A stretch of DNA of 64,000 nt from Methanoculleus sp. (GTDB taxonomy: Archaea > Halobacteriota > Methanomicrobia > Methanomicrobiales > Methanoculleaceae): assembly GCF_020696975.1 (NCBI RefSeq), contig NZ_JAJGBK010000022.1, forward strand, positions 1-64,000, written 5' to 3'. The position numbers and the translations under genes are program-made. This document shows, in pieces, positions 1,030 through 5,962 of the stretch; the first letter of the stretch is position 1, and each line of letters starts with the position of its first letter. The notes beneath the pieces were generated by a model that was given only the letters and a program-made list of their open reading frames with translations, had not been told where the DNA came from and did not search any database.

Positions 1030-2208
1030 TTACGAATCTTTCCGTTCGCGGCCGCCCTCTCCCGGCCCCGCCGCACGCAGCGGCCGGAAGAATGCCCGGA
1101 TCTCCCGGGCCATCAGCTCCGGGACCTCCATCGGCGCAAAGTGGCCGCCGCGCTCGAGCACCGTCCACCGGCGGATATCTTTCAAGTTACGCTCCGCAAA
1201 CTCCCGCGGGGGGATCGGGTCGATATCCTTCGGGGGGAGGGCGAGCCCCACCGGGACGTCGACCTTCTGGTCCGGCGCAAGCGAACCCGATACCCACTCC
1301 TCGCGGTAACTGATCGCCCTGACCGAAGGGCCGGCCGTCCAGTAGAGCATGACGTTGGTCAGCAATTCGTCCTTCGAGTAGACCGTCTCCAGGTCTCCGT
1401 CGCAGTCGCTCCATGTGCGGAACTTCTCGATGATCCATGCGGCGTAGCCGGCGGGAGAGTCGTTTAACCCGTAGGCGAGAGTCTGCGGCTTCGTGCCCTG
1501 GAGCACCGCATACGCACCCTCGGAAAAACCCCACGCCTGCGATCTCGTGAGGTACTCCCGCTCCGTATCGGAGAGGTCCGGAAAGTTCGCCGTCATGATA
1601 GGAAAGCCGATGTCGGTGAGGTGGAGACCGATGATCGACCCGGGGTGGCGGACGCCGAGGATCTGCGATATCGGGCTGCCGCCGTCCCCGCCGCCGGCGC
1701 CGAACCGCTCATACCCGAGCTCCTCGGTCATCAGCCGATACGATATCTCCGCCATCTTTGCGAGCGGCTGCCCTTTGTCCGATCGTGACATCCCTGGGTC
1801 GCCGATGAGCGAAGGGACGATGACGTCAAACGAGTCGGCGGGATCGCCGTCGTGCGATGCCGGATCGGTGAGCATCGGGATCAGTTTGAGGTACCTGCAG
1901 ATCGAGTCCGGCCAGCCGTGAAAGAGGATGAGCGGCATCGGGTCCGGCCCCCTGCCCCGCTCGTGGATGAACCGGATCTCCATCCCGTCAATATCGGTGG
2001 TGTAGTGCCGGAATCGGTTCAACTTCGCTTCGCGAGCCCGCCAGTCGTAGGCGTGCAGCCAGTAGTCGGCGAGTTCCTTCATGTAACCGAGGTTCGTGCC
2101 GTAGTCCCAACCCGCACCCTCGACCTCGTCGGGGAAGCGGGTGCGGGCGAGCCGTTCCCGGAGGTCGTCGAGCGTCTCCTCCGGGACACTGATGGTGTGG
2201 GGCCGCAC
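1030..2208 (-). CDS. Epoxide-hydrolase-like alpha/beta hydrolase, copy 2
   Basis: About 392 residues of the alpha/beta-hydrolase fold with the N-terminal domain typical of microsomal-type epoxide hydrolases (EHN family). Visible parts are the N-terminal lid region (DDLRERLARTRFPDE), the oxyanion-hole motif HGWPDS, the nucleophile elbow GGGDGGS (Asp near residue 173), and the catalytic His in ERGGHFAPME (near residue 354). Epoxide hydrolases use this Asp to form an ester with the substrate. The open frame runs on past 2208 to 2703, but that part is the shadow of the upstream gene. The start is taken as GTG at 2208; TTG at 2214, overlapping the upstream stop, is the alternative. It is clearly a paralogue of the gene just upstream. 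The natural substrate is unknown. Confidence 0.8.
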   Translation of the reverse strand: MRPHTISVPEETLDDLRERLARTRFPDEVEGAGWDYGTNLGYMKELADYWLHAYDWRAREAKLNRFRHYTTDIDGMEIRFIHERGRGPDPMPLILFHGWPDSICRYLKLIPMLTDPASHDGDPADSFDVIVPSLIGDPGMSRSDKGQPLAKMAEISYRLMTEELGYERFGAGGGDGGSPISQILGVRHPGSIIGLHLTDIGFPIMTANFPDLSDTEREYLTRSQAWGFSEGAYAVLQGTKPQTLAYGLNDSPAGYAAWIIEKFRTWSDCDGDLETVYSKDELLTNVMLYWTAGPSVRAISYREEWVSGSLAPDQKVDVPVGLALPPKDIDPIPPREFAERNLKDIRRWTVLERGGHFAPMEVPELMAREIRAFFRPLRAAGPGEGGRERKDS

Positions 2209-2210
2209 CG

Positions 2211-3401
2211 TCAAATCGACACCCCCAGAACCTCCCGGTACTCCGCCCGCAAGGGGCGGAAGAACCCCCGGATATCCCGAACGAAGAGGTCCGGTTCCTC
2301 CATCGCGGTGAAGTGGCCGCCCCGCGGCATCTCGGTCCACCGCTCGACGTTCAGCCTCCGCTCCACCCATTCGCGGGGAGGCGGGATGAAGTCCTTCGGG
2401 AAGACGGCCATCCCGACCGGAACCTCGATACGCTCTTTGAGGAAGTCCAGCGGCAGAGCATGCACGTTCTCGTAGTAGAGCCGGACCGACGACCCGATCG
2501 TCTCCGTCGTCCAGTAGATCATGATGTTCGTGAGGAGTTCGTCCTTGCTGAAACGCCGCTCGATATCGCCGCCGCAGTCGCTCCAGGAGCGGAACTTCTC
2601 GACGATCCAGGCGGCGAGACCGGCGGGCGAGTCGTTTAACCCGTAGGCGAGGGTCTGCGGTTTTGTCGACTGCATCATGTTGTAGCCGCCTTCCTGCGTC
2701 CACAACTGCTGGATCGCATCGAAATACCGCCTCTCGTTCTCCGAGAGGTCGGGGATATCGACGCCGAGAGGAATGAAGCCCATATCGGTGAGGTGGAGGC
2801 CGATGATCGATCCAGGATGCCCGAGCGCCAGGAACCGGGAGACCCCGCTCCCGATGTCCCCGCCGCCGGCGGCAAACCGCTTGTAGCCGAGGACGTCGGT
2901 CATCAGCCGCCCCCAGATCTCGGCAATCCGCGCCGACGTCATACCGCGCTCGTGCGGGCGGTCGGAGAAACCGTAGCCGGGCATCGAGGGGACGACGACG
3001 TCGAACGCGTCGGCAGGGTCACCGCCATGCGCCGCCGGGTCGGTGAGCATCGGGATGATCTTAGCGTAGCGATAGAAGGAGTCCGGCCAGCCGTGCGTGA
3101 GGATGATCGGGAGCGGGTCGGGGCCTTTGCCCCGCTCGTGGATGAAGTGGATGCCCATACCGTCGATATCGGCACGGTAATGGGCAAACCGGTTCAACTC
3201 CGCTTCGCGGGCCCGCCAGTCGAACCGGTTCAACCAGTAATCGACCAGTTCCATCATATAGTCCAGATTCGTCCCGGAGTCCCAGCCCGTGCCCTCGACC
3301 TCGTCGGGGAAGCGGGTATGGGAGAGCCGATCCCGGAGGTCGTCCAGGACCGGTTGGGAAGTCTCGACCCGGAACGGCTGCACTGACGTATCAACCACCA
3401 T
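2211..3401 (-). CDS. Epoxide-hydrolase-like alpha/beta hydrolase, copy 1
   Basis: A 396-residue EHN-type alpha/beta hydrolase. The N-terminal domain carries DDLRDRLSHTRFPDE, followed by the HGWPDSFYR oxyanion motif, a G-Y-G-F-S loop, the nucleophile elbow AGGGDIGSG (Asp near residue 179) and the catalytic His in RGGHFTAMEEPD (near residue 360). The length matches full-length family members. It starts at ATG 3401 and is followed directly, with touching ends, by a second copy. The pair probably arose by tandem duplication and is co-transcribed. Its role is unknown; family members hydrolyse epoxides in lipid or xenobiotic metabolism. Confidence 0.85.
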   Translation of the reverse strand: MVVDTSVQPFRVETSQPVLDDLRDRLSHTRFPDEVEGTGWDSGTNLDYMMELVDYWLNRFDWRAREAELNRFAHYRADIDGMGIHFIHERGKGPDPLPIILTHGWPDSFYRYAKIIPMLTDPAAHGGDPADAFDVVVPSMPGYGFSDRPHERGMTSARIAEIWGRLMTDVLGYKRFAAGGGDIGSGVSRFLALGHPGSIIGLHLTDMGFIPLGVDIPDLSENERRYFDAIQQLWTQEGGYNMMQSTKPQTLAYGLNDSPAGLAAWIVEKFRSWSDCGGDIERRFSKDELLTNIMIYWTTETIGSSVRLYYENVHALPLDFLKERIEVPVGMAVFPKDFIPPPREWVERRLNVERWTEMPRGGHFTAMEEPDLFVRDIRGFFRPLRAEYREVLGVSI

Positions 3402-3483: not shown

Positions 3484-3497
3484 GCTAATATATATGC
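3484..3497 (+). promoter_or_regulatory. TATA box for the channel/CorA fusion gene
   Basis: The sequence CTAATATATATG lies about 65 nt before the ATG at 3558, in an otherwise GC-rich gap, and looks like an archaeal TATA element. Transcription would begin near 3518, leaving a leader of roughly 40 nt. Confidence 0.5.
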
Positions 3498-3557: not shown

Positions 3558-5033
3558 ATGCTGGAAAACCGGCCTTTAGGGGAGGAGAACCCCGCCGGAG
3601 AGAGCCGGCCGGGGCGGAAAGCGGCTCTGCGGGACCTCGTCTACCTCCTCCTCCCGGACGGCCTGATGATCTTCCTCGGTCTGATGATGGCGCCCATCGT
3701 CATCCTGCCCCTCCTCTTCCCATCCCTCCCCGAACCCCTCATCGAGTTCCTGAATACCGCCGACACCGTGATCATCGCCATATTCGTCCTCGAATACGTC
3801 CTCAAACTGGGGCTCGCCGAGGACCCGGTGAGCCACTTCCTGGACCGCTGGCACCTCCTCGACCTCGTCATCATCACGCTCCCAGTATTAGAGGTGGTGC
3901 CGGTCGCCGGTTCGACCCTTGCCCGGTCCTCACCGGCGCTCCGGCTCCTCCGGGTGGTCCGGGTGGCGGCGGCCGGCGGGCGGTCCGTGGAACGGCGGAT
4001 CGAGCCGGAGGTCACCGTTGCCGGACCAGCACCGCCAGCGTTCTCGACGATGCGGATCCGGGGGGTGGTGGGAGAACCCGGGAGCGTGATCGATGGCCTC
4101 ACTCCAGAGGAGGGAAAGCGGTATCTCCAGGACCCCTCGGTCGGGGCCTGGCTTGACATCTCCGGTGTATCCCGGCTGGACTTCCCGGTCCTCTCCGACC
4201 TCCTCGGGATCCCCGCCGTCTTCCTCGAGAGTAAACTCATGCGCCCCTCGCGCCCGGGAATAACGGTTGCCGGCACAACCCGGCTCATCTTCGTGCAGGA
4301 GCCAGAACGGACGGACCGGGTTCGTAAAGGGGCGCGGACCCAGGTCGTGACGACCACAGGGCTGATCATCCTGCACCGGGAGACGAAGATCGTCACCGTC
4401 TCAATGGCAGAAGACCACTTCTTCGAGCAGACCCGGGCGGGTCTCGACGAGAGCGCCCTCCCCGGGGTGCCCCTGGACGCCCGGGTCCTCTACGGATCTC
4501 TTGACCGTATCAACGAGAACTACGCGCGGATCCTCGCGGAGCTGGAGGCCGAACTGATGCGGCTTGAGGAGACGCCCAACAACGAGATGCCGAAGAACTT
4601 CCTCGATACCGTCTTCCAGTTCAAGCGGGTGAGCAGCGTTCTGGCCTCAAACCTCTTTCACGAGAGGGAGGTGACGACGATCCTCGCAAGAAGCATCTCG
4701 GCTACAGAATCGTGGACAGGGGAGAAGAGTATCTTCGATGCCCTCGCAAGCGAGACGGACTACCTGCACGAGACCGCCGGGAACATCCGCGAAGGGCTTC
4801 TCTCCCTGATCGACGTCCACATCAACACCGTCTCCTACGAGATGAACCGGGCGATGCGGGTGATCGCCGTCCTCTCGGCCCTCGTGCTGATCCCGACGCT
4901 TGTCGGGCAGATGCTCGGGATGAACACCCTCGACATCCCCTTCAGCCTCTACCTCTGGCAGGTGACCGTCTGGACCCTGATTGCGATGCTCGGGGTCGGC
5001 TGGGTCTTTTACAAGATCGGGTGGCTGAGATGA
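3558..5033 (+). CDS. Ion-channel-like (S1-S4) domain fused to a CorA-type divalent cation transporter
   Basis: A 491-residue membrane protein. Residues about 31-147 hold four helices arranged like the S1-S4 segments of voltage-gated channels. The fourth (about 126-147) is Arg-rich (LRLLRVVRVAAAGGRSVERR), as in a voltage sensor. From about residue 163 the chain is a CorA/MIT transporter: a beta-rich N-terminal domain, a long helix near residues 305-345, then two C-terminal helices with the signature GMN at 454-456. CorA proteins carry Mg2+, Co2+ or Ni2+ as pentamers. No pore helix or selectivity filter is seen between the two parts. Related archaeal proteins may share this layout, but I cannot check. 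Direct evidence for both domains is good; voltage control is inference. Confidence 0.85.
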   Translation: MLENRPLGEENPAGESRPGRKAALRDLVYLLLPDGLMIFLGLMMAPIVILPLLFPSLPEPLIEFLNTADTVIIAIFVLEYVLKLGLAEDPVSHFLDRWHLLDLVIITLPVLEVVPVAGSTLARSSPALRLLRVVRVAAAGGRSVERRIEPEVTVAGPAPPAFSTMRIRGVVGEPGSVIDGLTPEEGKRYLQDPSVGAWLDISGVSRLDFPVLSDLLGIPAVFLESKLMRPSRPGITVAGTTRLIFVQEPERTDRVRKGARTQVVTTTGLIILHRETKIVTVSMAEDHFFEQTRAGLDESALPGVPLDARVLYGSLDRINENYARILAELEAELMRLEETPNNEMPKNFLDTVFQFKRVSSVLASNLFHEREVTTILARSISATESWTGEKSIFDALASETDYLHETAGNIREGLLSLIDVHINTVSYEMNRAMRVIAVLSALVLIPTLVGQMLGMNTLDIPFSLYLWQVTVWTLIAMLGVGWVFYKIGWLR

Positions 5034-5541: not shown

Positions 5542-5614
5542 CGCCGCCAACAGGACTCGAACCTGTGACATGCTGGTTAACAGCCAGCCACTCTACCAAC
5601 TGAGTTATGGCGGC
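5542..5614 (-). tRNA. tRNA-Asn (anticodon GTT)
   Basis: The minus strand folds into a full cloverleaf of 73 nt. The acceptor stem is GCCGCCA paired with TGGCGGC, with discriminator G. The D-arm contains AGTTGGTAGA, the anticodon stem GCTGG/CCAGC encloses the loop CTGTTAA, and the T-arm is ACAGG TTCGAGT CCTGT. The anticodon GTT reads Asn codons. No intron is present and CCA is not encoded. Confidence 0.95.
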
Positions 5615-5653: not shown

Positions 5654-5962
5654 TTAAACATTACGGGAGTTCTCCCGCTTGATGGTCTCAAGGAGATCGA
5701 TCAGGTCGTCGACCTCGCCCTCCAGACCGTCAAGGAGGTCGGCCGCGAGCGGTGTGGCCACTGCGCCGGCCGGCGAAGCGCGGATATACCCCTCCTGCTC
5801 GAGGATCCGCAGCGAGTAGCGGACCCGGTGGTAGGGGAGGTCCAGGACCTCGGAGAGCTTCATGATGCCGATGGGCTGGTGCTCCACGACCGCCCGGATC
5901 ACCTCAAGGTGCCGTGAGGCGAGTTCGATCTCGGATTTGAGTTTTGTCAGCATATCCGCCAT
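5654..5962 (-). CDS. Winged-helix transcriptional regulator
   Basis: A 102-residue protein. Residues about 15-70 form a winged helix-turn-helix: an N-terminal helix (EIELASRHLEVIRAVVEH), a recognition region (GIMKLSEVLDLPYHRVRYSLRILEQEG) and a wing (YIRASPAGAVATPLA). The C-terminal acidic helix (DLLDGLEGEVDDLIDLLETI) probably makes a dimer. This layout is common among small archaeal regulators. It sits just downstream of a small membrane-protein gene on the same strand with about 20 nt between them, so the two may be co-expressed. No target site was recognised. Confidence 0.75.
   Translation of the reverse strand: MADMLTKLKSEIELASRHLEVIRAVVEHQPIGIMKLSEVLDLPYHRVRYSLRILEQEGYIRASPAGAVATPLAADLLDGLEGEVDDLIDLLETIKRENSRNV

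Follow-up and report, generated by a model that had tools for sequence, protein, structure and literature searches.

The open reading frame at positions 3558–5033 (+ strand) of the window, i.e., the 64,000-nucleotide stretch of Methanoculleus sp. DNA analysed here, encodes a 491-residue protein in which an S1-S4 voltage-sensor domain (VSD) precedes a CorA domain. This architecture is near certain. The protein is likely to be a divalent-cation channel, and the chances that it is gated by voltage appear to be about even.

Both parts of the protein score above the curated Pfam cut-offs. A domain search of the N-terminus against ion-transport families, proposed when the fusion was first noticed, returned Ion_trans (PF00520) for residues 37–136 with 42.8 bits (cut-off 25, E 4.7e-11), and residues 197–486 matched CorA (PF01544) with 109.1 bits (cut-off 27, E 3e-31) over profile positions 5–292 of 292. 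The Ion_trans match covers profile positions 6–102 of 241, which correspond to S1-S4 only; it is followed by the CorA domain, and the S5-P-S6 pore that comes after S4 in six-helix (6-TM) voltage-gated ion channels is absent. Both domains also exceed the cut-offs in the distant members L046 and L081. phmmer searches of PDB chains matched the N-terminus to Na+-channel and T-type Ca2+-channel voltage sensors, and the C-terminus to the CorA proteins of T. maritima and M. jannaschii. The score against the NCBIfam corA equivalog model (TIGR00383) was 66.7 bits, below the equivalog cut-off of 200.75. The original prediction, made from the sequence alone, had described four N-terminal helices, the fourth rich in Arg, joined to a CorA domain with a GMN motif, and each of these elements was recovered, with the motif at the position claimed (Table 1). 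It had also held that CorA proteins normally have no such module; indeed, the module is absent from the three other CorAs of the genome and from all other CorAs compared.

Table 1. Coordinates in the window of the VSD-CorA fusion gene, its encoded elements and its putative promoter.
Feature	Position	Strand	Remarks
TATA-like, AT-rich element (TAATATATAT); start codon about 63 nt downstream	3486..3495	+	putative archaeal promoter
VSD-CorA fusion gene, 491 aa, single-gene transcription unit	3558..5033	+	neighbours on either side lie on the other strand
S1 helix, residues 34–53	3657..3716	+	model; no acidic residue
S2 helix, residues 59–86; D69, F76, E79	3732..3815	+	model and alignment
S3 helix, residues 97–113; W98, D102	3846..3896	+	model and alignment
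S4 helix and extension, residues 115–146; R123, R129, R132, R135; [AG]G[RK] at 140–142	3900..3995	+	model and alignment
Variable linker between S4 and CorA, residues 147–165	3996..4052	+	
CorA cytoplasmic alpha/beta domain and 'willow' helices, residues 166–386; S225 replaces D89	4053..4715	+	
CorA stalk helix and TM1, residues 387–455; pore residues D419, N430, M433 kept; A395 equivalent to D253	4716..4922	+	
GMN selectivity-filter motif, residues 454–456	4917..4925	+	
CorA TM2, residues 466–487	4953..5018	+	

The full-length AlphaFold2 model, built with 21 orthologues (mean pLDDT 72), contains the four N-terminal helices followed by the CorA alpha/beta domain, the stalk helix and TM2, with the boundaries given in Table 1. 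The pLDDT of the S4 region is about 45–50, and S4 and the linker are of low confidence. The best PDB matches of this model in Foldseek were all CorA structures, with a TM-score of up to 0.74 on the CorA chain and E 2e-14. A separate model of residues 15–156, built with 28 relatives, gave a different set of neighbours: its best 50 PDB matches were all voltage sensors of voltage-gated Na+ channels, or chimeras or relatives of them, with probabilities of 0.95–1.0 and E values of only 0.02–0.14, as expected for a short helical query. S4 was the lowest-confidence segment in both models. The lack of an S1-S4 bundle had been named beforehand as an outcome that would speak against the idea, and the prediction yielded the opposite, a voltage-sensor bundle. 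A chance low-complexity match to Ion_trans is excluded by sequence, fold and the conserved charge-transfer residues. The topology is also compatible with the fusion, because the even helix count of S1-S4 brings its end to the cytoplasm, where the CorA domain sits.

The alignment of the fusion proteins identifies D69 as the outer countercharge, F76 as the charge-transfer aromatic residue, E79 as the S2 Glu and D102 as the S3 Asp, the inner countercharge. F76, E79 and R129 are present in every intact fusion VSD tabulated, and D102 in all but a few members; Asn or Tyr is found in a few Methanoregula-type proteins. S4 positions 123, 126, 129, 132 and 135 constitute one i+3 register, which reads R-P-R-R-R in the window protein, R-R-R-R-R or R-R-R-R-Q in Methanothrix, and R-R-R-Q-Q in most Methanoregula-type members (Gln at 132 and 135). 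Most members carry basic residues on the register beyond R129, and their total in members other than the window protein ranges from two to five. In the Methanomassiliicoccus member only R129 and R132 are found, L080 is reduced to the same pair, and in L014 S4 is shortened by a three-residue deletion. A basic [AG]G[RK] motif usually stands just after S4. In two Methanothrix type-2 proteins (L104 and L112), the S4 region is about eight residues longer, with repeated LLPR-like units (ILRLVRVLPRVLPRVLL), and the filter is GVN.

The substitution pattern indicates purifying selection of different strength along the protein. In Methanoculleus, the median dN/dS is lowest in S4 (0.09); S1-S4 as a whole and the pore helices both stand at 0.23, below the CorA cytoplasmic domain (0.37) and the linker (0.38). 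The corresponding medians of the Methanoregula-type set are 0.17 (S1-S4), 0.07 (pore helices), 0.19 (cytoplasmic domain) and 0.51 (linker). Thus, the sensor is constrained at least as much as the CorA cytoplasmic domain attached to it. The distal linker varies and is under weak constraint, which counts against a stiff lever running from S4 to CorA.

In TRP-type channels and others of weak voltage dependence, S1-S4 domains play a non-sensing part; the module described here may likewise have kept the sensor fold but not voltage sensing. It would then serve in ligand or lipid binding, assembly or anchoring, and CorA would be a constitutive or ligand-gated divalent-cation channel. We consider this possible, at clearly less than an even chance. 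The reduced S4 charge in several lineages (Q132/Q135 in the Methanoregula type, two Arg in L080) and the variability of the distal linker fit such a role, and the conserved basic patch after S4 could bind lipid headgroups. However, the complete charge-transfer centre is accompanied by four to five register Arg residues in Methanothrix (L073, L081) and by four in Methanoculleus and L046, and the Methanoregula substitutions lead to polar Gln, not to hydrophobic residues. Moreover, S4 is the most constrained segment in Methanoculleus, more so than would be expected of a passive anchor. The suggestion of the original prediction that the helices might merely be an extra anchor therefore fits the constraint data less well than its other suggestion, an influence of membrane potential on cation flux. 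The latter gains indirect support from the retained sensor anatomy, the constraint on S4 and the loss of Mg2+-sensing ligands.

This loss concerns the inhibitory M1 Mg2+ site of T. maritima CorA. Its residues D89 and D253 are missing in 23 of the 23 fused CorAs scored (S225 and A395 in the window protein), whereas the classical CorAs scored at these positions carry both. The MPEL loop is also missing in the fused proteins. In classical CorA, Mg2+ at the intersubunit M1/M2 sites regulates the channel (PMC8865849). Loss of D89 alone is no proof of a new gating mode, since a CorA type without a VSD (L003 of the window genome, and L033) lacks this residue as well. Comparison with T. maritima CorA and other archaeal CorAs showed that each of the 23 fused CorAs retains the equivalents of the pore residues D277 and M291, and that all but one (L025) retain that of N288. 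The filter itself is less uniform: the window protein has GMN, and the Met varies among the fusions, giving GTN, GSN, GEN, GVN and one GMK. GTN occurs in a Methanoculleus subclade and in Methanothrix. Within Methanoculleus, L009–L014 carry GTN as opposed to the GMN of the window protein (P0001), L006–L008 and L015–L017; as GTN is also found in Methanothrix type 1, the change from GMN to GTN seems to have occurred more than once. The window genome encodes three further, ordinary CorAs. A tandem pair of ordinary CorA genes was noted at G000:C22:43247–45352, one with a GMNF..MPE filter loop and the other with GMNVRNITF.

Pore-less VSDs such as Hv1 conduct protons, and Hv1 requires its S1 Asp. The VSD of the fusion might accordingly be the permeation path itself, as an Hv1-like proton pore or an omega-current pore, with CorA as a scaffold or a metal-sensing partner. 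In favour of this, the variable Met of the filter and the single GMK member imply that selection on the CorA pore may be relaxed. Nevertheless, CorA TM1 and TM2 with the D277/N288/M291 equivalents are strongly conserved, and the S1 helix of the window protein contains no acidic residue that would match the selectivity Asp of Hv1. An Hv1-like proton channel was rejected on the absence of this Asp, and we judge permeation through the VSD in general to be very improbable.

The CorA-domain tree, of 54 sequences, places the 25 from fusions in one clade (100/99 support) that requires a single change of state. The VSD tree recovers the same main groups, namely Methanoculleus, the Methanoregula type, Methanothrix type 1, and L046 with L104/L112, although its deep forks are weakly supported. 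The CorA clade and the matching groups of the VSD tree indicate that the two parts travelled together, and the simplest reading of these trees would be one old fusion followed by joint inheritance.

How widespread the fusion is had been left as a question by the original prediction. Matches were found in 49 of the 232 genomes of the window's order; about half of them are fusions (full-length proteins and a few fragments) and the rest are CorA only. Within Methanoculleus, 13 of 35 genomes encode a full-length fusion, the other copies being 72–79% identical to that of the window. Beyond the genus, fusions are present in Methanoregula and other Methanomicrobiales, in Methanothrix and in Methanomassiliicoccus. 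The family of Methanothrix gave matches in 5 of the 50 genomes searched, some as fragments only, and the two VSD-CorA types coexist in one Methanothrix genome (G545); in Methanomassiliicoccales the fusion was found in 1 of 147 genomes. Among 301 Chloroflexota genomes, a single one, a MAG, has a copy (L072), which is split by a frameshift near S4; the flanking genes on its contig look bacterial by eye (plsX- and DegV-like). In-frame fusions are present in dozens of genomes, far beyond what chance would give. Several of these genomes are closed or derived from isolates, e.g., Methanoculleus sediminis S3Fa, and the in-frame copies in complete genomes and isolates exclude an assembly or frameshift artefact. 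A frameshift removing the join in related strains, which had been named as a potential objection, was not borne out: the two halves are still joined in frame in most related strains, although broken, truncated or fragmentary copies are found in G060/L018/L074 (G060 ends in S4), G073/L084, G005/L029, G992 and the Chloroflexota MAG. The G070 copy has one TGA near its end. Its patchy occurrence and the broken copies mark the gene as accessory, and the patchiness suggests transfer and loss.

The damaged copies, and the lack of a full-length copy in 22 of the 35 Methanoculleus genomes, could also be expected of an accidental or dying fusion, a neutral read-through of two genes with no special function. 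However, the fusion has a single old origin, all intact members of the clade retain the VSD, dN/dS lies well below 1 over both parts, and in-frame copies exist in complete genomes and in isolates such as the one mentioned above. The clade tree and the dN/dS values make this explanation highly unlikely.

The reading that we prefer is that of a CorA-type pentameric divalent-cation channel in which the voltage sensor took over gating or was added to it; on present evidence its chances seem evenly balanced. Each subunit would carry S1-S4 ahead of the cytoplasmic domain and so have six membrane helices, and the single pore would be ringed by five sensors. The GxN pore would admit divalent cations, probably Mg2+, drawn by the inside-negative membrane potential. 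CorA uptake is electrophoretic, and both TmCorA and MjCorA show enhanced transport at −116 mV (PMC6972854). S4 would end in the cytoplasm beside the CorA N-terminal domain, and its voltage-driven movement could shift the cytoplasmic domains or the stalk helices, opening or closing the hydrophobic gate. The variability of the distal linker suggests that the coupling path is not a rigid lever but either the proximal basic motif or contacts of the VSD with helices of the pore or stalk. Voltage control would replace the inhibition that internal Mg2+ normally exerts through a main binding site that is lost here. As for direction, our guess is that the channel conducts on an energised membrane and closes once it depolarises, which would keep the influx of cations from dissipating the potential. 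The fuller proposal, a voltage-gated pentameric CorA in which potential replaces internal Mg2+ and couples divalent-cation entry in methanogens to energisation, and which was passed to a few other lineages, falls slightly short of an even chance.

Known voltage sensors sit on tetrameric pores or on phosphatases, or stand alone as in Hv1. If the proposal is true, a sensor on the five-fold CorA pore would represent a new kind of coupling with mismatched architecture, methanogen metal-ion homeostasis would be tied to membrane energisation, and a prokaryotic, probably expressible model for sensor-pore coupling would be at hand. The natural variants (S4 with four to five Arg versus two to three Arg plus Gln; GMN versus GTN, GSN, GEN and GVN) make the question testable by comparing orthologues. 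The fusion protein is best filed in the CorA family as a variant with a VSD. With the CorA/MIT proteins (2-TM-GxN; T. maritima and M. jannaschii CorA) it shares the alpha/beta domain, the long stalk helix, two C-terminal transmembrane helices, the GxN motif and the D277/N288/M291 equivalents; it differs from classical CorA in the extra N-terminal S1-S4, the lack of D89/D253 and the MPEL loop, the variable Met of the filter and the score below the corA equivalog cut-off. The S1-S4 fold, the charge-transfer centre and the i+3 Arg register of S4 are common to the VSDs of NavAb, NavMs, Cav3 and Nav1.x; in contrast to these Na+ and Ca2+ channels, the fusion has a CorA channel in place of the S5-S6 pore and, in Methanoculleus, Pro at the second S4 position. 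The sperm Na+/H+ exchanger SLC9C1 also joins a VSD to an ion-transport protein other than a voltage-gated channel pore, but it is a eukaryotic secondary transporter that additionally contains a cyclic-nucleotide-binding domain (PMC10620091), and its transport unit is a solute carrier, not CorA. Among known transporters, it has been described as the only one under the control of voltage-sensing domains (PMC10620092). In the voltage-sensing phosphatases (VSP), S4 is likewise followed by a cytoplasmic effector domain, and coupling of the VSD to the cytoplasmic region has been described (PMC6298786); the effector is, however, a phosphatase and not a channel, and the distal linker of the fusion is variable. 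The VSD-CorA combination is apparently undescribed, as no published account of it was found in the open-access full text searched.

The VSD-CorA gene stands alone, since its neighbours on both sides are on the opposite strand: an epoxide-hydrolase-like gene upstream (2211–3401), and a tRNA (5542–5614) and an HTH protein (5657–5962) downstream. TATATA-like elements lie upstream of the gene in all ten aligned Methanoculleus copies (the window and nine congeners), and a promoter/terminator scan, which says little for an archaeon, found nothing. Synteny is partly conserved in Methanoculleus with no operon partner, and no partner gene conserved across genera was found. At three Methanoregula-type loci (L077:7360–7911, L076:5286–5837 and L079:7345–7926), an orphan membrane protein of about 184–194 residues with no Pfam match is encoded directly 3' of the VSD-CorA gene and is a possible partner. 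The upstream neighbour belongs to two adjacent epoxide-hydrolase-like genes (1030–3401, − strand), seemingly unusual for a methanogen; EHN and alpha/beta hydrolase domains were confirmed for 2211–3401, ORF 1030–2703 resembles a second copy, and among the loci compared the pair is syntenic with L067 and L071 only. A DUF3800-X RNA (Rfam RF02984, 78.8 bits) lies at positions 193–266 (− strand) of the window, near the contig start. At a related locus (L065:7567–8211), an ORF starting VRVYVDESGDLGF, DUF3800-like by eye, is located directly 3' of the fusion gene.
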